Assembly (NCBI GenBank): GCA_026929865.2
Contig: CM049395.1
Coordinates: 34,451,501-34,515,500 of the forward strand
Length of the DNA stretch: 64,000 nucleotides
From: Hyperoplus lanceolatus
Taxonomy: Eukaryota > Chordata > Actinopteri > Uranoscopiformes > Ammodytidae
Direction: 5' to 3'
Shown piece by piece: positions 23,394-60,123 of this stretch (position 1 is the first letter of the stretch; every line of letters starts with the position of its first letter). The translations under genes and the position numbers were made by a program. A model generated the notes under the pieces. It did not search any database. It saw only the letters and a program-made list of their open reading frames with translations, and was not told the DNA's origin.

Positions 23394-25724
23394 ATGGCTT
23401 CCGTCGGTAGTTTTGTTAAACCTCCCTCTGAGGCAATGTTGAATGGTTGCACAAAAGACCAACTTTTGAAACTCGTGGAGCATTATGAGGTTGACATTGG
23501 GGATAAAAAGTTAAAGAAGGAAATTAAAGGGGCACTGAGGGCTGCTTTAATTGAAAGTGGTGTTTTGCCAGTCACAGTGCAAAGTAATGCTGTGGTTTCT
23601 CCTACTGTAGGTCTCACCTTTGATCAACAAAAAGAACAGATGTTAAAGCCACTACGAGTAACATGGCACGTTGGCGTCCCCTTTGGACAAAAGCGGTAGT
23701 ATTTTTACGACGCCCGCTGTCACAAAGCTGTTTTCTAGCTTGTGCCAGGCGCGTGAGTGTGACCTGAGAAGGGAGCAATATAGTGCATGTCCGTGTGTTG
23801 AAAGTGTGAGGACTCTTTTCGGCTCCGTGAGAGTGGTTTTGACACTGCATGAACCAATGCCAGTCACTGCCACACGCACCTGATTGCAATGAGTTGATGC
23901 AGCAGTGTCACCTAACTACTCTCTCACGGAGCTGAAAGATTACGTGTCCGACTCCTCACAGAAAGCGAATGAACGATAGACGGCAGTTAGTATGGATCAC
24001 GATGAGGTAATGTGTTTATGTTGTTGTAAATAATTACTATTTCAGATAATGGTTATCTGATGATGGTGATGCAAAGCAAACTTTGTGTTAGTACCAACCG
24101 CTCATTCATTTAGGAGTAAACACTGCAGTCTAGTTTCGCTCTCGTGAAATTGTATACACGTTGCTTGGCAACGCCCTCGTCCCCCCCATAGCCTATATCA
24201 CTCTGCCTTTTAGCTTTTCTTCATTGCATTTTCTTTTTTTTCTTTGATGGTTCAGCCCTGTTATCAGTCATTATGACGACAAATAACTGTATCAAACAAG
24301 GCTCCCGCTCCCCTTCCCTCACCTGGAGGGATAGGCTTCTCAATTCACGTTGCTGCGCCACACTGAAATCTGCGACCAATACGGATATGTGACCATAGAG
24401 CTTGCACGAGCGAACCGCAAATCGGACTGGGTGTGCGACCAGACCAAAAGCAGTAATAAAAACTATTTAAAAACGTCTTTCTTTGCACTGATGGTTTCGT
24501 TTGCTGTTAAAGGTAATTTATGATTATCAGAGGAAACATGAGGCTGTTTAAAAGATATTTAAATGTTACTCGTAGCCGCTTTAATACAGATGGAACATGA
24601 AAAGGCTCTTGAACGTACACAAATGGATAAGGAGTTAGCGCTTGAAGCAATGAAACAAAGAACAGAGCAGGCAAAACTGGACATTGAACAATGTAAACTG
24701 GATCTAGTTAGAGAAGGTAAAATGGCAGGAACTGATATAACTAGGTCTGCTGGTTCATCTAGGGTGGATTGTACTAGGAATCTCAGTTTGCTGCCTAAAT
24801 TTGATGAGGAAGACCCAGATACATTTTTTCCTTGTTTGAGCGTCTCGCTGATACACAGGAGTGGCCTGATAGTGAATGTACGTTGTTACTTCAATGCGTG
24901 TTTAGAGGTAAAGCCCAAAAGGCATATGCAGCATTAACAGCAGAACAGTGCACAGAGTATAAAATGGTGAAAGAAGCCGTTTTAAAAGCTTATGAATTAG
25001 TTCCTGACGCTTACAGGCAGCTCTTCAGAAATTGGAAAAAAGGGGAAAAGCAAACGCATGTGGATTTTGAAAGGGAGCTGGATATACATTTTGATCGGTG
25101 GTGTTCTGCATCCATTTGAAGAACTGCGTGACCTGGTTGTGCAGGAAAAAGTTAAGCAGTCGGTGCCTAACTACATATCTACTTATATCAATGAGAGAAA
25201 AGTTAAAACTCCAAAAGAAGCCGCTGTACTTGCGGACAAATATGGTTTAACACACAAGCGTATCTTTGGGGAGCAAAGTCAACAACGGTTTAGACTCAAA
25301 GACAGCGGGGAGAAAGGTGAATCAGATTTCAATCGGGGTTCTGCAAAGGGAGAGCTAGGCACAGTTGGGAACAACAAACCTAATACAACTTGTAATTATT
25401 GTCAGCGACAGGGGCACTGGAAGAAGGAGTGCCCTTTGTTAAAATCAAAAAAGGGTTTCAGTACAGGGCCTGCTCAATCCGTTGGGTTAGCTGTTCCGCT
25501 TAGTAGCTCCGAGTTAAGTACTGACAAAATTGTCCCTCCATTTCAGATGCAACCCAGAGTGTTGAGTGTAGCTGATATTGCTTTAAGATATGCTCCATTT
25601 ATATCAGAAGGTTTTGTATCCTTAGTTGACAATAGCAAGAAGGTGCCTGTCAAAATGTTTAGAGATTATGGGGCTCTAGTTAGCTTCATTAGGGAGTCAG
25701 CCTTACATTTTTCACCAGACTGAC
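23394..25724 (+). pseudogene. gag of the Gmr1-like element, interrupted
   Basis: Starts at ATG 23394 (MASVGSF). The first ~80 codons are followed by a 942-bp transposon (23643-24584). The frame then resumes with a charged coiled-coil-like segment (EKALERTQMDKELALEAMK), a capsid region at about 24780-25260 and a CCHC zinc knuckle (CNYCQRQGHWKKEC, about 25390-25432). The capsid part YRQLFRNWKKGEKQTHVDFE, then FDRW and later KTPKEAAVLADKY, has the layout of the vertebrate SCAN domain, which is known to derive from Gmr1-like gag. Two further frameshifts are visible, one in a T run near 24830 and one near 25108, so no complete Gag can be made. Confidence 0.75.
23643..24584. mobile_element. hAT-type MITE inserted in gag
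   Basis: Inverted ends start TTAAAGCCACTACGAGTAAC at 23643 and mirror at 24584 with about two changes. The flanking 8-mers AACAGATG (23635-23642) and TACAGATG (24585-24592) differ at one base and are the target duplication expected of hAT. Leaving out the element plus one duplication copy keeps the gag reading frame. There is no transposase in it. Confidence 0.85.
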
Positions 25725-26390
25725 ACAGGAAGGTGTATTTGAATCAGAGGAATGGGTTTAAACACCATTGTTGTGCCTGTCCATACTGTGCATTTGTCTT
25801 GTGGCATGATACAGGGGGATGTAGAGGTGGGTGTGCGTCCAGATTTGTCAATGAAGGTGTTGACATTATTCTGGGCAATGATTTGGCAGGAGCATGTATG
25901 TGGCCTGATGCGTCCACCTCTGATGGGATGTGTGTATTGTCTCCTGCTAAAGCGAGGTCTGAGGTCCCTGAGCAGTCGGTGTGTGCCGTGTCCCGTTCTC
26001 TCAGTGTGCTGCTAAGAGTTGACGTGCAAATAGCTGATCTTGGGTCTGTTTCTCATGCAGAATTGGTGAAGGACCAGATGGATGACCTTTCTTTAGTTAA
26101 ACTATTTGATCGTGCTGTGTGTTCTGGTAAGTTCGGAAACCATTCTGGAGCTTATTTTCTCCATAATGGCCCGCTGATGAGGAGGTGGGTCCCTCATGGG
26201 AGAAATTTGGCTGGGGGATCAGTGGGGAAGATTGTGCTTCCTGTGAGATATAGACAGCCGGTGATCGAAATGGCGCATGTAGCTGGTTAAGGGGGAGTGA
26301 GGAGTACATATGGGCGGGTACTTCAGCACTTTTTCTGGCCTTGTATGAAACGGGATATATCCACTTGTATAAAGACCTGGTAGCATTCAT
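25560..26390 (+). pseudogene. pol remnant: aspartic protease then start of integrase
   Basis: The protease begins after the knuckle and linker. The catalytic triplet reads D-Y-G-A (about 25660) where D-T/S-G-A is expected, so the active site is damaged. A LGNDLAG motif (about 25880) sits in the flap-to-C-terminal part typical of these proteases. A frameshifted stretch lies between (about 25720-25860). It then runs through about 120 codons to LPVRYRQPVIEMAHVAG and, after a stop at 26288, a YGRVLQHFFWPCMKRDI motif, which is the zinc-binding integrase N-terminus. The sequence ends there; the catalytic core, reverse transcriptase and RNase H are missing. Confidence 0.7.
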
Positions 26391-31469: not shown

Positions 31470-32510
31470 CAGTGCTTCTCAATTATTTTCTGTCATGCCC
31501 CCCCTAGGAGACTGAAATTTTTTCGCGACCCCCCTAAATTGAAATACTATTGAGAACCTGCTAATATTTATTTATTTATCTGTATAAGAGTTATGTATGA
31601 GTTTGAGTTGCTAGCACCAGCATTCTGCATACAATCACCTTATTATTAAAATAGATTAATAAAATTTGCTGACATCTGCAACATCTTAAAACAATTTCCA
31701 AGTTTATTAACTCAATTTGTAACATTTAAACAAGACCGTTCAGTCTGTGTGAATCTCAAAACACAGAAACAAGAGCAAATGTTTCACTGGGGTTTTCATT
31801 TAATTAATAACATTTTTAAACAGTAAACATTGGTCACTTGTCAGTCAGCTTCATCAGCTTATTCCCTTTCAAAAATATATATGACTTAAAAATAAACATT
31901 ACTCTTTGTGTGCAACATTTGCAACAATATTTAATGTACAATTTGCATACTTTCCCTGAACATAACACAAGACATTAAAAAAGCCTTGAACCCTGAACTA
32001 TTTGAAACTGGCAGCTACATCAGTTTGAGCATTTTTAATATAACTAAATTCACCTTCACAATTATTTTGAACTTATTTCCCTATTTGTCTGTTTTATATG
32101 AACACATTCTGCTTATAATACACACAAATACAATTTGCTCTGTATTCTAGTGGCTGCAGTGAGCCCTCTTTGCAGTGCACATCATTCCAAATCTGGGCTT
32201 CAAACTTGATACTGCTACTCTTAACTCTTGCTCAATGTTAAGCTGGGACCTGTACTTTGTCATGAGTGCAGCAACAGTGGAAAAGCCCATCTCACACAGA
32301 TAGGATGTGGCAAAGGGTAGTAAGATGTTGACAGCCTTCTGTCCAATGAGTGGATACTCCCTTTCTTTGTAAGATCTAAATTCTGTTACACTTCTGACCC
32401 TTGGTATAATGTTTATTTAAGAAAAAAAAATATATATATATAAAAAAAAAATAAAAAAAAAAACACTAAGTCCCCCCTGCCGCTCGCGCCCCCCCTGAGA
32501 CCCCACCAAG
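31470..32510 (-). mobile_element. hAT element (Charlie-like), mostly deleted
   Basis: The left end CAGTGCTTCTCAATTATTTT, then TGTCATGCCCCCC, is typical of hAT elements. The right edge has the expected CTCGCGCCCCCCCTGA but lacks a clean CAGTG mirror. The interior keeps only the last part of a transposase on the minus strand (32147-32410). No 8-bp duplication can be confirmed. Confidence 0.7.
32147..32410 (-). pseudogene. hAT transposase C-terminal (dimerisation) fragment
   Basis: A minus-strand frame of about 85 codons ends at a stop at 32147-32149. It contains LLPFATSYLCEMGFSTVAAL followed by TKYRSQLNIEQELRVAVS. This is the hAT family dimerisation region as seen in Charlie/ZBED5-like transposases. 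The catalytic part is absent: upstream sequence runs into an A-rich tract at 32420-32460. It is an inactive relic. Confidence 0.75.
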
Positions 32511-41320: not shown

Positions 41321-43056
41321 GTCGCACACATTCAAATTTCCATCTGCAAGTTACATGACCAAGTTTACGGTAGCCTTTACTTGTCTACAATGCAGAAGAA
41401 GATGAAGAGTGAGGAAGCCCATAACAAATAAGTCAATGGAAAATGAATAGAACTTGAAGCGGTGAAAGAAACATTATATACTCTTTCATCTCTATTTAGT
41501 TTTCCTGAATTGAATCAAAAATTTAATTTTTCTTTTTATCTACAATAATATATATTATAGAAGACAATAAGACATGACATACATTAAGAATACTAGAGTT
41601 TGTAGTTACATAGAAATGAGCAAGGAATTATGACAGACATTTTTGACAGATGTAATATTTGAGTGTGTCATCATGACTTGTGGGGCGCACTTTATGTCGC
41701 AGTTGGGGTAGTTTGAAGGTTTAGTAGCGTAAATACATTACTATGCATGAAATAGCCTCAAATTTAGGTTACGTGTTCAATTGACCAAGGAGCAAACATA
41801 ATTAAAAAAAACTTCTATTGTTCAATACCCCCAATGTTGTTTTAGCCTGAATACACAGTTTGCAAAGGTTAACTGTGGTTTAATTTTCACTGTTATATGT
41901 TTGGATGAGATTGATCAATACAGGTTTGAGAAGATATACGCTTTATCTCGCAAGAATACATCACATTGGCACAATCATTTTGTGAGAAGGTCAAACATAT
42001 TTTATTCCAACTTAATGGGTGGCCACGTATATCTTACCTTATCTATTGTGACAGCAAGTGCCAAGCGAACCACCTCTGGACCACAGTGAATGGGAAGTCC
42101 TTGGCCCGGTCATGGAGAGGCATCCTTGGCAGGAGACCCATAATCCCTTGTTAGGGCCATCTGCTTCCCCCACAGTCTGTTGCCCTGTCCAACCTTAGCA
42201 CAACCATGAGTATGGTCCAGCTTGTGATGCTGCAGCCATGTCCAGCCTGGAGGTTCCTCTGCAGCATGACAGGACAACATGCCTTCATTCTAGTGTGTCA
42301 TCAGTGTTTTGTTGTATAAGGTGTGGAACCAGCTCCAGGGTGCGATTGTATCCTACTTGCAGCTTGTGTCCCTTAAACGGCCGTCCACATTTTCAGCAAC
42401 TGTTCACAGTTGGTTGTTCTTTGTCTTGTGAATGATAAATTATAACTTCTATAACTTTGATCTGTGAAATGATGATATCTGTCATGATAATGTCAGCTGA
42501 ACCGGATCAACACCTGTGTCATATTTATTAATGGATAAAGCAGGTGGAATAATAACCTAATACTTAACATGTTTGTGGCAGGGCAACAGAGCAGAGCTGC
42601 TCCATGCGTGGCTGTGTGCTTAGAAACTGAGACGTTGAGTAGCTGGGAACATAAATGAGCATGTATAGGTTGTTAGGTTCTTCTCACTTTTTAATAGTTT
42701 GAATAAAACAGATAGAGATGTTAGAGAGAGACTTTGACCAGAGTTAGGCTACTATTGTCACTAAGAACTGTTCATACTCAAAGTTAAATTAGTCATCTTA
42801 ATCAGTTATATGGGGTTAAGCTGTACAGTTTGAATGAAGCCCACATATAGTTCCTTAACAAAGTGTAGCCTACAATAACTTAACTATGGTTAAATGAGGT
42901 CCTGTCTGCTTCAAAATAAAAGTAATCTCACTTTTCGTCCATTAATTGCTTCTAATGTGAAGCTACGGCCCAGAGAAAAAGTGTGTGTGACTTGTTGTCA
43001 GTAGTGATGGCTTGTCCACTCACAAAGTTGTAATGGAGGCGGTCCGTGTGTGATGG
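41321..43056. other. Unassigned DNA
   Basis: No intact gene. The 42.0-42.4 kb stretch has short plus-strand frames and looks less AT-rich than its surroundings, but I cannot match it to a family. Confidence 0.45.
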
Positions 43057-43181
43057 TGCGTTCCAGTTACATCAAAACATATCGGAAGTCGGAGGTCGGA
43101 ACTGGGAGTGACGTCACCCCCGACCTGCTTGCGTTCCAGTTACTTGATAGTCAGAACTCGGGAAAAAAAGTGAGAAGAACG

Positions 43182-43297
43182 ATGGATGCCCGAAGAAAAG
43201 CTGTTGTCGTTTTAGCTCTTGCCGAGTACAAGAAACTACAAGAAAAATATGCAGTCCACTTCAAAAACATGACAGAACATGACAGTAAACGCAGAAA
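43182..43297 (+). CDS. Short first exon, Harbinger-transposase-like N-terminus
   Basis: Starts at ATG 43182 (MDARRKAVVVLALAEYKKLQ) and continues through EKYAVHF to SKRRK, where a good donor GTATGT follows (43298). The basic, leucine-rich start resembles the N-termini of fish HARBI1-like nuclease genes; this is recognition by memory, not a measured match. No downstream nuclease exons are visible before 44.5 kb, where the opposite gene ends, so the catalytic part is lost. It lies about 125 bp inside the left inverted repeat, where a transposon's own first exon would be expected. Confidence 0.4.
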
Positions 43298-45242
43298 GTA
43301 TGTCTGTTTGTTTTGATAAATGTTGTTTTCTGTTTAGTTTATACGGCTAACGGGATATTTCATTGGAGTTTTGTTTCAATTTACCGTGCATCAGAATAAA
43401 CGGGTACAACCATACAACAACTTCAATGAGAAATCCCGTTATCTTTACTTTAGACACAATAACAATGGGTTATGACCGGTTTCAATTAGGCGACTTGAAT
43501 ATTTAAAATAAAATAAAAACATCACGTCTTGCATTTCTTGTTGTGGCTGGGCTGATTTTTGCCATCAACTGTCAACCGTGGTGGAGGCCGGCTCACCTTA
43601 TTAAAATAGCCTCTTTGGTCTGAAAAGAGAGCGAGATAAAAAAAAAATCGTATCGTTATTTTCTTATAAGCCTAGGTGTAATGCTGATTGACAAAAAGCC
43701 TCTGACTCAAGTTTGATTAGCATAGGCTACCTGTTTCACTGTCATTTATTGTTCAATTGGTTGTGTTGGTAACACATTATAATACAGAAGATTGCTACTG
43801 TTTTTGGGTTTGCTATTGGCTCACTGCAAACCAGGGCCTGTTTAGTTACGAGTGTATTAGGTAGCCTACACCTTGATCAAACAAAATAATGCAGTCAATT
43901 GTTTTTTATGAGGATGTAGTAGGCAGGACCTATGTGTACTGTGTCATACAGTTGAAGCATTCGTTATTTGCAAAAACTTAATTTCAAATAAGATAAAAAC
44001 ATCCCCAACCCAAATTTTTCTAATTATTTCAAAATGAAGCAACTTATACAGTCATAGTACTTAAATAGTACTTTAATATATTCTATAGAATTGTATTCTT
44101 TATTTTAACCTCACTTTTTTTTTCTGACTTAGGATACTTATACAGTGGTTGAAACAAAGGTTTCAAAAGCACTTGCCCATAGTGCAAGTGTAGGTCATGT
44201 TTGACTTGCCCGAATGTAATGTTCACTTGCCCAAATAAAAACAAAAACGATTAAACAGTTATGGAGAGTATAATTTAATCATAACTTTTTACATAAAACC
44301 AACAACAATTCATGTAGCCTACATATCATACAGCCAAGCAACGACACACAGACAGAACTGTGAAATGAACTATCAATTGAAAAATAAAATATTTATAATA
44401 TATATACATCATGAAACAAAAGATTTAAATAGCTTATTTTTTTAACTTGCATATCAAAATTACACACAACATACAGAACTAACTTAAACTACAACATAAT
44501 GTACAAGGTGTACTTAATCCTCCTCTTCCTTCTCCTCCTCTGACACCAGTTCCTGAACCCCTTGTTGACTAGTTGTAGGTCGTCTTATTCTTTTTGAGGA
44601 TCCCCACCAACGCTGAATGGCAGCATCAGCGTCGAATGAGTCCTCAGGTGGACCCATGATGCTGAGGAACATCAGCATCTGGAGCTGGGTGGGTGTCAGC
44701 CTGGATCTTTGGTCCGATTTGATCCGCTTCATTGAGGCAAATCCTCTTTCACACCCTGCAGTGCTCACTGGGAGGACCAGGTACACCGCCATCAGATGGG
44801 CCAAGGCCTTGAACCTGGTCTTCTTTTCCTCTTAAAATAGAAAAGGTTATTTTATTATTAATATTATATTTTAAAACTGGGGCACTAAATCTGACTGTGG
44901 CTTTACTTCTTATAATCAAGAATTTTCAACATACCACACTGCAGGATGCCCAAAAAGAGCTCACTGATTGTGCTGTGAGTCCGACTCCTTGCATGCGACT
45001 TGTAAAGTGCAAAGTCAGCTTCTGCCTCCTCACAGCTGGTCCCAGCCCTCTCAAGGAGTTTCTTGTAATGCTGTGCCACCTTCCTGAACTGTTCCTTCCC
45101 GAATACCCCAAGGTCCTCTCTGGACGTAGGCCAACGGGAAGGATCCAGTACCGCAAACTGTGCCACCACACTGTCCTCCTGCAGGTCCTTCAGCCTCTCC
45201 TCGAGGTGTGTGATTATGGAGTCTGTTAAGAGTAGAGCAGTG

Positions 45243-45243
<1 letters not shown>

Positions 45244-45323
<80 letters not shown>
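45244..45323. repeat. ATT trinucleotide microsatellite (about 80 bp)
   Basis: Pure ATT/TTA repeat in an intron of the hAT-type gene. Poly-Ile and poly-Asn frames over it are artefacts. Confidence 0.95.
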
Positions 45324-48300
45324 TGTATTAATAAAAGTGATTTTATAAGTGCACAAAGGTTGATTTATTTACTGTATTATATAAATTCAGTTTTATTAGC
45401 CATCAAATCTTTAAGTGAAACATTACCTATGACTTCCTTTCTCGTGATGAGAAGTGTCGTGGTCCCCACTTTGTGGAGTTTCACTCCCCTGTAGGTCCCT
45501 GTACTCTCCACATCCTGGGCCACCTTTGACACCTCCGGGCCCATGCTGGATTTGAGCTCCACCAGGTTTAGAAAGCACCTGAAAGATAAAAGAGAAATCG
45601 CTGACATGCCTGACTCAAAACAGAGAGGTGCTCCAGGACATCACACATAAAGTGCATGAAGAGAACACTTTCGTGATTGAGGAGGAGGGAGAGAACCTTC
45701 TTTGCTCGTCCAGACACTGAAGGAGATGGTTTTGGGGAGCGCTCAGGACTGGCCATATCTTCAAAGTGGGCCACTAAGACCCTGTGGCTGTTACACACGA
45801 TCTGAAACAATAGTTATGTCAAAGATTTTTATATCCGTTCATAAGTTGAAAATCTGTTAAATGCCAAATGCAACTAACAAAAGCATATAATGATTAAATA
45901 ATGGTTTGTATAATACCTTAACAGCACGATAAACATACGGCAGCCATCGAGCGCCACGGAGTGTAGTGGGCCTCAGGACTTTCTCCTCCAGTGCCTCAGC
46001 AATAAAATGGAGCTCCCTTATTGCTTTAGGGGAGTAGAGGTATTGGTCATATAAATGAACCAACACCTCCTGTAAATTTGCCATCTTGGGGTTTTCCTTG
46101 ATCGCCCCCACCACACCGAGCTCCAATCTGTGGGCTGTACAATGGATCGAAACTAAGTGCTCCACCTCTTGCTTGAGTCGGGCTGCCACCCCCGACTTGG
46201 AACCCAGGTTGACTGCAGCCCCATCACTGCCGAACCCCACCAGCCTGGCTTTCCAGTCACTCACTCCTGCCTCGTCCATGCCTACAACAGAAGCACATTA
46301 TTTCTAGAGATAAAAAATTGTATATTTGACTTTTTTACTTATTTTTGCATAAATATAGCCTTTACATAAGTTGCTTTACAAATAATATATAAAATATTTT
46401 TTATGACCAGGCTACACAAATGTACTCACAAGTTTCAACAGCCTCCAAGACAGCCGCTGCATGAGCATGTCTTACTGCATGGATGCCCACATAAATATTC
46501 TTTGGGCCCCCTGCAGCCAAGAGCCTCACAAATACCACTTTGTTCTCCATCCTGGCAGAATCTGTGGCCCCATCAATCATAATGGAGAGATACCTAGCCT
46601 TGTTTATGGTCTGGACTAGTTTCTTCTGCTCTATCTCGAAAATTCCTCCAAGGAATCTAATTAAATAAAAATAAAATGTACTTTGACATAGACACTTTCA
46701 TCCAAAGCTGTGCCTTTAATCTTATCTATTTATATTCTAAATGTTTTTGTTGAAACTATTAAGCATGATTCATTTTCAGTGTTTAAATAACCACTATAAA
46801 TTACATTTATTTATATGGAATATGTATAAGTAATTATGAATTGCTATTAGAAAGTCAATCAATATATATTTTCTTAAGAAATAATTTACCTCTTGCATGC
46901 ATTATTGCTATTATAGCAATCGGACACCTTGCCGCCTGTTCTGGCAACCAGAGCACGGAGATGGGGGAATTCCGTGAACGGCTGCTCTCTTTTTGCTACA
47001 TAATATGCAATGTGCATGTTATTGACCATCTTCTCCCAGAGTTTTTCCTCCAACCGCAGAACACCCCTCATGACCGGAGGCAGCGGTGCGTCACCTCTAA
47101 GTGATGCACGCTGTTGCGCGTTCTCACAGAGGAGATGGCGCTTGCTCTGGCCGTGAGCTTTAAATATGGGTTGTCTGAATGACTGGCACCCATTAAACAA
47201 TGATGCTGTCCTGTAAATACATTTGAATTCCAGTAAATGTAACGTTAATGCCAACGTAATTAGGCTATGTTTACCATTAGTTGTAAAATAGAAGTCTTAC
47301 CGGTCGGCAATGGCAGGGAACTCCCTGCAGACTTTGCACAGGAGAACGCTCTCTTCTGCATTGCGCTGCACCCAGGGAAATTCAACCTTCCAGTCATCAA
47401 CAAACTTACGTTTGCGGGTTGTTTCGTATTTTTTCGGAGCGCTTGGTCGTGCTGCAGAATCTAGAAGGGGAGGATGCTTCTGGTTTTACGCTATCCTGGG
47501 GAGCTGAGGCTGTGGACACTAATGCCTCTGGCATCCGCACCTCTAGCCCTGCTGCTGTCCCAACCACAGGGAAGACCACATCGTGTTTATCAGCCAGAAG
47601 GTCATCCATTTCGCGGTAGAACTGGAACAGCATGGTTCCCTTCCCGGTGGAGCGGTTATTATCTTTTACCTTTTTGTATGCATCCACTAGTGTGTGTCAC
47701 TTTCTGGCGACCTTGTCCGGGCAGAAGGTCTGTTCGAAATGGCCACCCAACTTCTGTGCTGCCTCCTTCCACAGCATTTTTTTTATTTGATCGGGCAATC
47801 TTCAACCTCAAATTGAGGTCCTGGAGGGTTTTGGGCAGCCCCTCACCCTCAGCTGCAAGATTCTCCCGCATCAGGTCAATAAGGAACAATGTATGTTCCT
47901 TATTGAAGCCCTCATTGGCTGGGGCTGGTAATGGGGCTGGTGATGGGCTGGAGGCTGGGTCCTCGTTTTCATTCCAACTGTCTAAATCAACAGGTTAGCT
48001 AGGACTTAAAAAGAAACACAATTATTTCTAATATTATGACGATTCCTAACCTGCTAGGGTATGAAACTCACCATGTCCAATCATCTTGATCCTTATATTC
48101 AAGTCCTTATCTAGGAAATATGTGCTCCTGTCAGCATCAGTTTGGTACAGAGGACCGAGGAAGGGAATTGTTCTCATCTCATCCATGAACATGGCAGCAT
48201 CTTTATCTAAATAGACTTTAAAAAAGGACAAACATAGGCCTAGTTAACATCACATCATGATAGATGTCTACAATGAAATCATTATTTATATTACAATATT

Positions 48301-48470
48301 GGAGCACAACAGTGCCTCTCCATGCTCAGCCACACACTAACTGCCTACACAATTTAAAAAATAACCCATGAAAATAAAACGGCTAAATAAACACTAAGCT
48401 GTTTTAACCATTGTTTACCGATGTATTAGTCAGAATCTATTTTAAATACATCCAAATGGAGCATGTACAG

Positions 48471-49863
48471 AGGGGTATACTACAAAGCAAACTCAACAGA
48501 GCCAGACTCTCTTTTTTTGATCTGGTTCAACATAACACATACCCTCGCTCAGAGCTAACCAGTATCACGAAGGACGTTATCAACCTCTTATGTTGAACGA
48601 GGGTTTCAGCTTCAGGCTCTGTGCGCGTCCCCATAAGAGGGGGCGTTTGACCGTCATTTGACTCTGCTTCCGCACAGACTGGACTGATCTTGTGCCGCTA
48701 ACTTTACACAAAAGCACTGATTGTGAGCAGCTGAGTAAAACAAAAGTGTGTCGCCAACTTCATTCAAGAGGAAGAGTTTGTCAGTCTGAATCATTACAGC
48801 AGAAAACAGAGAGCCGAAAAAAACTCTTACTGCAAATAGGCTAAGGAGAGTGGAATGCTGCCAGCATGGAAATTATTTATTTATCTTGCCGATCGTTCTC
48901 GCAGTGCGTAACGTGACATTATAAAACAATGAAACGTGGAACTCGGATTTAAACACTATACCATTTAGCCTAATATATATAGGCTACTTTGCTATATAGC
49001 ACTACGCCTATAGTCCCACACTTAAGAATGTAATTTAAGTCTGACACTGTCCCCAAATGAATAGCCTATGGAAAATCATTTAGTTTTGGGCCACATCATA
49101 ATGAATACAATTTTAATTTAGACTATTAGTCTTTTATTTGAATCTTGCAAATACCAATAGGCCTACATTAAAAAACCTGTAGTCTGGATTTTTCGGACAA
49201 ATATGAATCTACTGTGAGAAGCTTAACCTGCGAGTCTGCAGCGATGTCCGAACTGTGACAGCTGTCACCTGTCACGTCCCAACTGTAATCGCTACTGATG
49301 AAAAGAAAGAAGCCCACAGTGAAATAATGTTGCAACCTGTGATTTTATAGAACGCTTTATTAAGAGCCAGTGTGTGTAGATCGCCAGGTAAAACCATTTG
49401 AGGTGAGAGCATAGAGTGGCGCTGCATACAGTAGGCTATAGGTGTGGGCTATTTTACATTTTCAATAACTGTATGCATGTGGCAAAAAGCCGCAGCGCGA
49501 TGTTACAGTTCACTCTGTAAGCCTAATGTCACAGCTTCGTTTCGTTCATTAACTTACTGATCAATAAGTTTAGATGTAACAGTTTCCTCAGTGAGAATGT
49601 AGCGCTCAGACAATATTGTCAGGTCCGCGGGATTTCTAAATGTGAAGTTTCTTTGAAGGGCAGCGCTCTAAAAGCCGAATTTAAGCTCAAACTCTGAAAC
49701 AAAAACTGCTCTGAGCAGGTTTGCCGTGCAGCCTCTGTTACCACGGTGATCTAGCCAGGTAAAAAGAGAGCCACCTTTCGTGATACTGAAAATTCTGGCT
49801 TTAGACCGCTTTAGACTCAACAGACCTCGCTCAGCCCTTAATCTCGCTTCGTAGTATACCCCT
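48471..49863. mobile_element. TIR element nested in the composite transposon
   Basis: The ends read AGGGGTATACTAC on both strands (48471 and, inverted, 49863), followed by similar AAAGC/GAAGC and CAACAGA text. 1393 bp with no transposase. Ends of this type (GGGGTAT..TAC.AAGC) occur in several fish DNA-transposon groups; I do not assign a superfamily because the flanking bases (CATGTACAG left, CATGTCATG right) give no clear duplication. It lies in the intron between the first two exons of the minus-strand gene. Confidence 0.7.
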
Positions 49864-50355
49864 CATGTCATGTCAACCTTTTCCGCCATCGTTTAATGCA
49901 GAACAATCGAAACTTTAAACATTGTTTAAAGAAAGTAGCCTATAACATTGGCCGCTTAATCGCTACAACCCAGGTTGACAGTTGTAGCAATCACCTCGGG
50001 TTAGCCGTTGGTTAGCCGTTGTTAGCTTAACAGTTAATAACAACGCTCTGTGGTACTTTGAGCTTCTTCATATCGTTTAATATTTCCTGACAATTAAACG
50101 TACAGATTTAAGAGAGGCAGTATCGTGGGTACGGGTACTTTTGCGTGACATAAATAATACATAAGAGCTAAAATGTTATATTACAGCTGTGTTTACTTAC
50201 TGTTAATTCGCGGAGCAGCCATCTTTATTGTTGATGTCGGGGTTGTCTACTTGTCTCCGACTTTCCGAGTAGGAAATCCGACTTCAGGGGGCGTTCCATT
50301 CTAAATTTCCGACTTTGAAGTCGGACATCCGAGTTCCCAGTACAACTGGAACGCA

Positions 50356-51497
50356 ACGCAACGTACTGTGAAGAGTTTTGTGGCTGATTCAGAGCACAGA
50401 CGGGTTCGTGCAGATAAAGGCATAATGAGGAAGTTTTCTGCCAGACAAATTCATTGGATTAGGAGAGCAGCTGCTAAAATGCCATTACAAAGCAGCAGAC
50501 AGGTATTTGAAGCCGCTGGTGCCGCTGGAGTCCCGCAAACCTCAAGGTGTAGGATCCTCCAGAGGTTTGCAGCTGTGCATAAACCAATTATTCGGCCACC
50601 CCTCAACAATGCTGAAAGCAGAAACGGTTGCACTGGGCTCAGAAATACATGAAGACTAATTTTTAAACAGTCTTGTTTACTGATGAGTGCTGTGCAGCCC
50701 TGGATGGTCCAGATGGATGGAGTAGTGGATCGTTGGTGAATGGCCACCATGTCCCAACAAGGCTGCGACGTCAGCAAGGAAAATGACCTCTGCAAAGTAT
50801 GTTGAGTTTCTGAATGACCACTTTCTTCCGTGGTACAAAAATAAGAACTGTGCCTTCCGTAGAAAAATCATCTTCATGAATGACAATGCACCATCTCATG
50901 CAGCAAAGAATACCTCTGTGTCATTGGCTGCTATGGGCATAAAATGAGAGAACCTCATGGTATGGCTCCAATCTTCCCCTGACCTCAACCCTATTGAGAA
51001 CCTTTGGAGCATCCTTGAGCAAAAGATCTATGCGGTTGGGAGGCAGTTCACATCAAAACAGCAATTATGGGAGGCTATTCTGGCATCCTGCAAAGATATT
51101 CAAGCAGAAACTCTCCAAAAACTCACAAGTTCAATGGATGCAAGAATTGTGAAGGTGATATCAAAGAGGGTTGGCCTGTTAAGATGTTTTTGATTGAAAT
51201 AGTTTTTGATTTCACTAAATATAACCTCCACATTCTGCAAATTCTACAAATAGCCATTTTTAGTTCTTCACAACCTATAAAATGTTTTGAAACTCTGTTG
51301 TGCATAATAATTTGGAACGGTGCATTTTGAGTTTTTTATTTAAAAAAAATACTGTTATCATTGGGAGGTTTGTTCAATAAAATTTGAATCATACTCTAAC
51401 GGTTGATGACTTGAAAATTATACTGACTGTCATTTGCATCGACTATTTAGGAAAATCTGGGAAAAATATAATTTGCATAATAATTTGGAACGCACTG
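50356..51497 (+). mobile_element. Tc1-like element, left end missing (DD37E type)
   Basis: The right end reads inward from CAGTGCGTTCCAAATTATTA at 51497, with TA at 51498-51499 as expected for Tc1/mariner. No matching left end is present: the composite element at 43057-50355 meets it at about 50356. The transposase is described separately. The junction may come from recombination, or from insertion of the composite element into the Tc1 5' part. Confidence 0.75.
50368..51193 (+). pseudogene. Tc1/mariner transposase, DD37E spacing, broken
   Basis: The N-terminal helix-turn-helix region is partial (ARQIHWIRRAAAKMPLQSSR, then SRCRILQRFA). The first catalytic Asp is in LFTDECCAALDG (about 50677), the second in FMNDNAPSH (about 50882) and the Glu in SPDLNPIENLW (about 50996). 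Counting codons, 37 residues separate the second Asp and the Glu, so it is DD37E and not the usual DD34E; the TRT group of fish Tc1-like elements has that spacing, from memory. Damage: the N-terminus is cut off, a frame change lies near 50.63-50.67 kb, an internal deletion removes the segment between the first and second Asp (only about 65 residues remain there), and a TGA lies at 50945-50947. Confidence 0.75.
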
Positions 51498-51499
51498 TA

Positions 51500-51839
51500 T
51501 GGCGGTTAGCAACATTGGCATATTTCAGCCACTGCGTGTCAGGTAAGTGTTGTCGTTGTCGTATGGTGAGTTTTGAAATTGAACATATGGCTATGTTTTA
51601 AATAATACATTTTGTCGCAACAACGTCATTATAATTATTTTCAGTGCGGCCAAAACCTGTCCGGATCCCCAGAGAGTATTTTGGCAAAGTTTGGAATCAT
51701 GGGATGCCGTGGTGCCTGCAGCAAACAGTCGTAAACACACAAACACACACGCAACCAATTATAGCCGCCAATTATAGTAGTGGGCTGGGATTTTTTATTT
51801 GCACTTTTGCTTATATTCATTCAGTTGAGTTTTCTAATG
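51500..51839. other. Unassigned DNA
   Basis: No gene or repeat recognised in this short stretch. Confidence 0.45.
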
Positions 51840-52060
51840 TCTATTTCTTATTTTATTGAGTCAGATATGATCTTTGTTACTGAACATGAGTATTGTATGT
51901 AGTGATTGTGTTGATAATAATAATATAAATGGTATAATAATGTTTAATGTTTGTGTATTGTCATTAATGTGATTGTTTAAATTGTATTAGAATGACACAG
52001 GACCCCAGGAAGAATAGCTTCTAGCTTATGCTGAAGCTAATGGGGAATAAATAAACAAGC
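51840..52060 (+). mobile_element. LINE 3' end
   Basis: GACCCCAGGAAGAATAGCTT, a short hairpin (AGCTT...TGCTGAAGCT) and TAATGGGGAATAAATAAA form the characteristic 3' end of a common fish non-LTR family. Only the tail can be recognised; the 5' limit is a guess. Confidence 0.6.
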
Positions 52061-56854: not shown

Positions 56855-58472
56855 CACTCAACAAAAATATAAACGCAACACTTTTGTTTTTGCTCCCACT
56901 TCTCATGAGATGGACTTAAAGATCTAAAATTCATTCCAGATACACAATATTACCATTTCTCTCAAACATTGTTCACAAATCTGTCTAAATGTGTGATAGT
57001 GAGCACTTCTGCTTTGCTGAGATAATCCATCCCACCTCACAGGTGTGCCACATCAAGATGCTGATCTGACATCATGATTAGTGCACAGGTGTGCCTTAGA
57101 CTGTCCACAATAAAAGGCCACTCTGAAATGTGCATTATTTTGCATTATTTGGGGTCTGGGGACTCAGAACCAGTCAGTATCTGGTGTGACCACCATTTGC
57201 CTCATGCAGTGCAACACATCTTTTTCGCATAGAGTTTATCAGATTGTCAATTGTGGCCTGTGGAATGTTGGTCCACTCCTCTTCAATGGCTGTGCGAAGT
57301 TGCTGGATATTAGTGGGAAGTGGTGCTCATGTGTGTGAAGTGCCCAAACATGCTCAATGGGTGACATGTCCGGTGAGTATGCTGGCCATGCAAGAACTGG
57401 GACATTTTCAGCTTCCAAGAATTGTGTACAGATCCTTGCAACATGGGGCCGTGCATTATCTTGCTGAAACATGAGGTGATGTTCATGGATGTATGGCACA
57501 ACAATGGGCCTCAGGATCTCATCACAGTATCTCTGTGCATTCAAAATGCCATCAATAAAATGCACCTGTGTTCTTCGTCCATAACAGATGCCTGTCCATA
57601 CCATAACCCCACCACCACCATGGGCCACTCGATCCAGAACATTGACATAAGCAAAGCGCTCACCCACATGATGCCACACACGCTGTCTGCCATCTGCCCT
57701 GAACAATGTAAACCGAGATTCATCCGTGAAGAGAACACCTCTCCAACGTGCCAGACGCCATCAAATGTGAGCATTTGCCCACTCAAGTCTGTTACGGCGA
57801 CGAGCTGGAGTCAGGTCAAGACCCCGATGAGGACGACGAGCATGCAGTTGAGCTTCCCTGAGACGGTTTCTGACAGTTTGTGCAGAAATTGTTTGGTTAT
57901 GCAAACCAATTGTTTCAGCAGCTGTCTCAGTGGCTGGTCTCAGACGATCTTGGAGGTGAACCTGCTGGATGTGGAGGTCCTGGGCTGGTGTGGTTACACG
58001 TGGTCTGCGGTTGTGAGGCCGGTTGGATGTACTGCCATATTCTCTGAAACGCCTTTGGAGACGGCTTATGGTGGAGAAATGAACATTCAATGCACGAGCA
58101 ACAGATCTGGTTGACATTCCTGCTGTCAGCATGCCAATTGCACGCTCCCTCAATGCTTGTGGCATCTGTGGCCTTTTGCTGTGAGACAAAACTGCACATT
58201 TCAGGGTGGCCTTTTATTGTGGACAGTCTAAGGAACACCTGTGCACTAATCATGATGTCAGATCAGCATCTTGATGTGGCACACCTGTGAGGTGGGATGG
58301 ATTATCTCAGCAAAGCAGAAGTGCTCACTATCACACATTTAGACAGATTTGTGAACAATGTTTGAGAGAAATGGTAATATTGTGTATCTGGAATGAATTT
58401 TAGATCTTTAAGTCCATCTCATGAAAAATGGGAGCAAAAACAAAAGTGTTGCGTTTATATTTTTGTTGAGTG
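56855..58472 (-). mobile_element. Tc1-like element with 280-bp inverted repeats
   Basis: Flanked by TA at 56853-56854 and 58473-58474. Both ends start CACTCAACAAAAATATAAAC and stay almost identical for about 280 bp (56855-57134 and 58193-58472), with only a handful of differences. Long inverted repeats are known in Tc1-like IR/DR elements. The near identity of the arms suggests recent insertion or gene conversion. It encodes the transposase on the minus strand. Confidence 0.95.
57174..58189 (-). pseudogene. Tc1 transposase (DD34E), one stop and one frameshift
   Basis: The frame opens at ATG 58189 (MSHSKRPQM) with a paired-like helix-turn-helix (RERAIGMLTAGMSTRSVARA), a GRPR-like NRRPRVTT linker and a second helix set (ETIGLHNQTISAQTVRNRLR). 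The catalytic triad is LFTDES, QQDNARPH and SPIEHVW, with 34 residues between the second Asp and the Glu. A TGA after NAHI (about 57759) is the only stop in the central part. Near 57.31-57.35 kb a small indel shifts the frame; the end (NIQQLRTAIEEEWTNIPQ, to HTRY and a stop at 57174-57176) is preserved in the other frame. Length about 338 codons is normal for the family. It is very close to intact but not functional as read. Confidence 0.9.
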
Positions 58473-60123
58473 TACATACAGTTTTTTCAACATTTAGACG
58501 CAGACAGGAGTTTGCTAACCAATTTGAAATATTGACCATTGCAGCTGATAGTTCTTCTGCAGCTTGCTTCTTGTTTTTAGCATGTAGATATATGACTGAA
58601 TCATCAGCGTACATCTGACAGGTGACAGTAGGTGGACAGACTTCAGGTAGGTCATTAATAAATAGACTGAATAACAAGGGACACAAAATGGAACCTTGGG
58701 GTACACCCACACAAACTTCAGCTATTTGTGAAATGTTATGATCCACTTGAACACATTGTTTCCTCTCTACAAGGTATGATTTTATCCATTTGATGACATC
58801 AGGTGAAGCATTAAACTTTGATAACTTCGTAATTAAGACCTCATGATTAACTAAATCAAACGCTTTCTTTAAATCAAGAAAAACAGCCCCCACAACTCCA
58901 CCCTTATCCAATTTAACTCTAATATTTTCCAAAAGAAAACAATTTGCTGTTTCTGTAGAATGATGTTGTCTAAACCCAAATTGCATAGGATGTAATGGGA
59001 AGGAACCTGTATTTAAATGCACTGTGATCTGTTCAGAAATCCATTTTTCTGCAATTTTTGATACGGCTGGAAGAATGCTTATGGGTCTGTAGTTGCTAAT
59101 GACAGTGTGATCCCCTGATTTGAATACTGGTGTAATTATAGCAGTCTTCCAGGAGCTGGGAAATACTCCTTCATTTATGGAACAATTTACAATATTTGAG
59201 ATGGAAGGGATGAGTGCCTCTTTATGAGCTTTAATAAATACTGTGTCCATCCCATATACATCCTTTTCCCTTGATCCATTAAGAGAGGATATAATCATAT
59301 TAACTTTGGAGTTGGTAACTCCTCTAAAACTCAGAATGGGAGCATCTGCATCTAGAGGGGTGACAGAGTGATTTGATCCAGAAAATTTCTGAGACAGGGT
59401 TGTTGTTGAGTTTATAAAATAATAATTAAATGCTGCTACCACTTGACTTGAATCCTTTGTTACATTTCCCCCTATGTTTAGTTCTATTGGTTTACTGATG
59501 ACATTTGATTTCCCTGTTAATTTTTTAAAATTCTTCCAGATTTCTTTGGTATTCCCCCTAGCTTCACGAATAGCATTAATGAAAAATGTTGCCTTTGCCT
59601 GCCTGAGTTCTTTTAAAACCTTGTTTCTTAGTGTGGTATAAAACCGCCTTTCATGAGCCAGTTTATTTTTGAGAGCCACCTTAAGAGCATGATCCCTCTG
59701 TTTCATAAGTGACCGTATAGTGTCATTTATCCAAGGTAGATGGTTTCTTTTGCCTGGTTTACATTTCATTTTCCTCATAAAACTGTGTATAGTTGTTTCA
59801 AGTTTCACGATAAAAAAAAGTACAATTATCTTCAACACTTTCATGTGCAAGCTGTTCATTCCAGTTGATTTGTTTAATTGCATTTTCCAGACTAGGTAAC
59901 TGATTTTTCGGGATTTTAAACTGATCTAACTTTGGGTAGGTTACTAGATTTGATCTATTTTTAGAGAGTTTTCTTACGATCAGAATCATATTGTGGTCGG
60001 ATAGCCCTGTGACGAAATTGTAAGATTTCTTTATTCTTTCTGGTCTATTTGTGAAAGCCAAGTCAATGAGTGTCTCTGATGAGCTTGTCATCCTCTTTGG
60101 CCCCTCAATGACCTGTTGGAATT

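Follow-up and report, generated by a model that had tools for sequence, protein, structure and literature searches.

In the excerpts available, PHIS elements are described as carrying a Myb/SANT open reading frame separate from that of the DDE transposase, and the role of the separate Myb/SANT frame is termed unclear (PMC4482050). Mobilisation requires ORF1 together with the transposase, according to the accessible part of PMC2836001. The target-site duplications given are TWA for PIF/Harbinger elements and CWG for NuwaI, a PHIS element (PMC4482050, in part). ZNF862 contains seven coding introns and PRKRIR (THAP0), which is classed under hAT, contains four (PMC3257199, in part). In ZNF862, a KRAB domain and TTF zinc fingers are found together with a hAT dimerisation region (PMC8856651, in part).

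The locus described here occupies positions 43057..50355 of the window, the whole stretch of 64 kb of Hyperoplus lanceolatus DNA that was analysed. A Myb/SANT gene starting near one end and short inverted ends are shared with PIF/Harbinger and the PHIS elements Pangu, NuwaI and NuwaII, but in the present locus a hAT body is attached to the Myb/SANT part, a DDE gene was not recognised and the target-site duplication was not matched, as compared with the excerpts of PMC4482050. The resemblance to hAT genes of the C17orf113/ZNF862 type lies in a dimerisation region scoring above the cut-off, a C17orf113-type zinc finger scoring below it, and coding introns as in ZNF862 (PMC3257199, in part). ZNF862 differs at its front, which consists of KRAB and TTF zinc fingers (PMC8856651, in part) and not of Myb/SANT as here. 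In PRKRIR/THAP0 (THAP12), too, a hAT body is joined to a DNA-binding domain that is usual in another superfamily. That domain is THAP, where the present gene has Myb/SANT, and PRKRIR is a host gene. Neither a Myb/SANT-hAT fusion nor a hAT/Harbinger chimera was described in the titles or abstract beginnings among the matches listed from the open-licence literature, and the arrangement is, as far as seen in that literature, a new combination of known parts.

Ten exons were traced on the minus strand, the first opening with an ATG at 50222 and the last closing with a stop codon at 44514. Exon 1 (50201..50222) contains the ATG and is followed by a GTAAGT donor. Exon 2 lies at 48072..48215, exon 8 at 45427..45578 and exon 9 at 44935..45222. 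Exon 3 (47301..47981), with an AG acceptor and a GT donor, was found exactly where the earlier note had put it; it holds the Myb/SANT domain, a linker at about 47411-47576 and the first half of a zinc finger, and its frame is broken. The second half of the zinc finger is encoded by exon 4 (46890..47210). Exons 5 (46430..46656) and 6 (45917..46281), which presumably belong to the hAT core, follow, and exon 10 (44514..44830) carries the hAT dimerisation region and the stop codon. AG is present at all nine acceptors and GT at eight of the nine donors. The exception is exon 7 (45610..45801), in which the GT donor is missing and from which the frame is not carried on into exon 8; its right-hand limit was chosen by the analysts. 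Exon phases were consistent at every other junction. The end of exon 7 seems to have been lost in the present copy, and the earlier count of about ten exons with usable splice sites holds except at this donor. No stop codons were present in the chosen frames of exons 4-10, compared with a mean of 29.5 and a minimum of 17 in 500 shuffles. The traced exons are genuine coding exons. Two introns contain repeats of other kinds. An (ATT)n microsatellite lies at 45246-45324, between exons 8 and 9, and intron 1 holds a nested inverted-repeat element (48470-49864) with 19-base arms, GAGGGGTATACTACAAAGC, that are 95% complementary. The limits given for the latter are provisional, and it is possibly flanked by direct repeats, ATGT or CATGT.

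For the domain search the exons were joined, with X placed at the frame breaks. Myb_DNA-bind_4 (PF13837) was matched with 28.2 bits against a cut-off of 27, and Dimer_Tnp_hAT (PF05699) with 37.7 bits against a cut-off of 21.4. The hAT-type zinc finger zf-C17orf113 (PF25431) reached 25.8 bits, below its cut-off of 29.5. When ten single pieces were searched before joining, one of them, the hAT dimerisation exon (exon 10), scored above the Pfam cut-off. No Pfam match to an RNase H-like hAT core was obtained from the joined exons. The motifs IMIDGATDSA in exon 5, GSDGAAV in exon 6 and GCERGF in exon 10 presumably mark the places of the catalytic D, D and E of hAT transposases. The hAT part gave no match by sequence in the PDB at E values up to 1. 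Three PDB rows were returned for the Myb part, headed by plant GT-1 (2ebi_A) at an E value of 0.13, which was considered too weak to count as a relationship. A Myb/SANT domain, such as PIF/Harbinger elements carry in an open reading frame, is present as read with X at the breaks, but it is fused and not separate.

The junction between the two parts lies within exon 3, which had been thought to read from Myb through the linker into hAT. This was not confirmed: the exon spans three frames and crosses one stop, a TGA at 47697-47699. The frame change in the Myb half is probably situated at a run of eight A residues (47777-47784). The last change occurs somewhere in 47406-47485, mostly within the linker, and the hAT half is in the third frame. 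Three of the four lesions in the minus-strand gene are located in exon 3 (p 0.052). An error of assembly is a possible cause of the two frame changes, with homopolymers perhaps involved in both.

The Myb-to-hAT linker of 166 bases was found to resemble an exon. Its GC content of 0.548 compares with 0.40-0.54 in the exons. Among 1420 overlapping noncoding windows drawn from the left gap and the introns, any intron below the linker's length being used entire, the highest value was 0.43, and in the whole 64 kb 1.8% of windows of the same length reach that of the linker. The Myb frame is open throughout the linker. In the hAT frame the stretch from the last stop to the zinc finger contains no ATG, and this frame crosses the exon 3 donor in the correct phase. 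A sequence resembling a hAT end was observed inside the linker at 47557 in the correct orientation, but was rejected as a hAT 5' end on account of 3 mismatches in 13 positions and the lack of a matching duplication. Between the two coding parts no convincing hAT end was detected, in agreement with the earlier note. The domains and splice sites, together with a linker that resembles an exon and offers no start codon for hAT, make a fusion at the level of the gene the best reading, with the frame broken at the junction in the present copy. The fusion in a single exon-rich gene claimed earlier is thus retained, but not its intact frame.

The main rival, considered unlikely, is a nested insertion: a hAT element would have landed within a Harbinger-type element, either inside its Myb gene or behind it, and later deletion of the hAT's 5' end and start codon would have brought the two parts together by accident. 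The Myb and hAT frames do differ at the junction, and the poor hAT-end resemblance at 47557 also counts in favour of this rival. Furthermore, a candidate hAT-like 3' end, CAGTGGTTGAAAC, preceded by TACTTATA, is located at 44143..44155 (plus strand), behind the hAT stop codon and inside the unit. It was judged against what is assumed to be the consensus of hAT ends. Against an accidental join speak the exon-like GC content of the linker and its openness in the Myb frame, as well as the correct phase of the hAT frame at the exon 3 donor, and a search for a counterpart of the end at 44143 that shares a duplication with it gave none. Nor was a pair of hAT ends flanked by a 5-8 bp duplication found: there was the lone lookalike at 44143, and an 8-base repeat with two mismatches at outer ends that are out of register.

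The fused gene, which sets the orientation of the unit as minus, lies between paired outer ends. They share a 12-base inverted repeat, TGCGTTCCAGTT, and common GTCGGA motifs. In the left end (43057..43187, plus strand) GCGTTCCAGTT occurs twice, 73 bases apart, at 43058 and 43131, and in the right end (50225..50355, minus strand) it occurs at 50354, with the inverted GCGTTCCATT further in. When the window was shuffled 100 times, three matches to GCGTTCCAGTT with at most one mismatch were reached in 6 of the shuffles. Six of the window's ten GTCGGA motifs are found within the two terminal stretches of 131 bases; for related motifs the numbers within the ends are 9 of 36 (TCGGA) and only 3 of 31 (CTCGG). 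When the terminal 36 bases of the two ends were compared, 9 of 20000 randomly chosen pairs of places matched as well. Over 220 bases the best alignment was equalled by 20 of 2000, and it runs through the inner copy near 43131 instead of the outer end. The left and right ends probably belong together. ATG exons are situated about 130 bases inside each of them, exon 1 beginning 133 bases inside the right end. On the left, a stretch at 43182..43298 (plus strand) with an ATG, 39 codons and then a GT may be the first exon of a second, convergent gene; this stretch gave no Pfam match above the cut-off. Its counterpart at the right end would be exon 1, an arrangement suggestive of two genes that once converged.

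Among 384 pairs of possible boundaries no convincing target-site duplication was observed. Exact 3-base repeats were present in two pairs (CGT and CTG), where about six would be expected by arithmetic, and one 8-base repeat with two mismatches was seen; all three occur at ends out of register with one another. TWA, the PIF/Harbinger duplication, was absent, CGT and CTG being the only exact 3-mers among the 384 pairs. CTG, which is of the NuwaI type, flanks 43128 and 50365, but those ends do not align and exact 3-mers are no commoner than chance. No known domain, and in particular no DDE transposase, reached a Pfam cut-off between 43050 and 44513, where one plus-strand frame and ten of the eleven stop-to-stop open reading frames of at least 40 residues were searched, the eleventh being covered by that frame. 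The Harbinger-like ends proposed earlier are therefore only weakly borne out: the ends are paired by 12 shared bases and clustered GTCGGA motifs, but neither the TWA duplication nor a DDE transposase accompanies them.

The failure to find a convincing target-site duplication at the outer ends would suit another explanation, in which a hAT family gained a Myb/SANT domain by exon capture and the outer ends are unrelated flanking repeats. The hAT-like end at 44143 would also suit it, and there are known cases, in host genes, of a foreign domain at the N-terminus of a hAT body (PMC8856651 and PMC3257199, both in part). The clustering of GTCGGA and the matching GCGTTCCAGTT at both outer ends are difficult to reconcile with unrelated repeats, and so is the start of exon 1 so close to the right end. 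Capture of a Myb exon is considered improbable.

It is still less probable, and indeed very improbable, that the locus is not a mobile element but belongs to the host, as a gene or pseudogene containing a domesticated hAT portion. Intron-rich host genes derived from hAT do exist, namely ZNF862 and PRKRIR (THAP0) (PMC3257199, in part), but the paired inverted ends near the first exon argue against such a gene here, and neighbouring open reading frames resemble transposon remnants when read. A Tc1-like transposase relic, also recognised by reading open reading frames, lies directly to the right of the unit (50362-51492, plus strand). TGCATAATAATTTGGAAC is present in it at 51301 and again at 51474, as if the relic had two 3' ends. 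Insertion of the unit into this relic was considered and rejected: the end motif occurs twice, both times on the right, no Tc1 part was recognised on the left, and no empty site could be derived. Farther away, two open reading frames at 57239-58213 (minus strand) presumably represent a nearly intact Tc1-type transposase, a frame of 505 residues at 58408-59925 (minus strand) is taken to be a LINE reverse transcriptase, and frames at 24563-26290 (plus strand) with a CCHC knuckle (CNYCQRQGHWKKEC) are assumed to be a retroelement gag. Scans of the window for tRNA genes (ARAGORN, bacterial code) and with Rfam were empty.

Further copies of the unit were sought in the window and in sequence collections. 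DNA from 42001-52000 gave no other match in the window at an E value of 1e-3. With tblastn, three pieces of the protein detected the gene itself and weak matches, the best being 32335-32228 (E 0.047) and 51302-51114 (E 0.077). A short open reading frame at 32147-32416 (minus strand) resembles a second, different hAT C-terminus, matched by tblastn to the exon 10 part at the E value of 0.047. Thus no second copy of the Myb-hAT unit was found in the 64-kb window by DNA comparison or tblastn. The N-terminal hAT part (359 residues) had no relative in viral_contigs, genome_contigs, phages or plasmids, nor had the C-terminal part (172 residues) in viral_contigs or genome_contigs; these collections comprise prokaryote genomes, plasmids, phages and viral contigs and no animal genomes, and are hence uninformative on fish. 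The Myb-hAT element is known here from a single copy and is not established as a family.

The explanation preferred, and held to be somewhat probable, is that the locus represents a DNA transposon, now decayed, in which a long gene on the minus strand encoded a single Myb/SANT-hAT fusion protein. It is favoured by exon phases that are consistent up to exon 7 and again from exon 8, and by the domains, the linker and the paired ends described above. Weighing against it, a change of frame at the junction would also be expected from an accidental join, three of the four lesions fall in exon 3, the shuffle result for GCGTTCCAGTT and the shares of TCGGA and CTCGG in the ends count against the pairing, the ends have no convincing duplication, the hAT-like end at 44143 lies inside the unit, and a second copy was not found. 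The fused protein would begin with a trihelix-like Myb/SANT domain and the linker, continue with a zinc finger of the C17orf113/ZNF862 type and the hAT core, and close with the hAT dimerisation region. Transcription in intact relatives may start from a promoter situated shortly inside the right end. The Myb domain would bind the repeated GCGTTCCAG/GTCGGA motifs of the ends, and cutting and joining of DNA would be carried out by the hAT core. Most likely, the Myb part and the ends came from a Harbinger-type element with two genes, whose DDE gene may have been replaced by, or lost to, the hAT region. The present copy is no longer able to make the fused protein. A bolder proposal, regarded as rather doubtful, posits a family of vertebrate transposons derived from a Harbinger-type element that gave up its DDE transposase and acquired a hAT transposase instead, joined to its Myb protein. 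The ends would have been kept, with the Myb part recognising them for a foreign core.

If the locus is merely a nested and decayed pair of elements, it is ordinary. If other copies are found to carry the same Myb-hAT join, it would be an unusual hybrid transposon. A true fusion would mean that the element shows an exchange of transposase between superfamilies, and, with its Myb/SANT domain attached to a hAT core, it would offer a natural way of testing whether Myb/SANT provides recognition of transposon ends.
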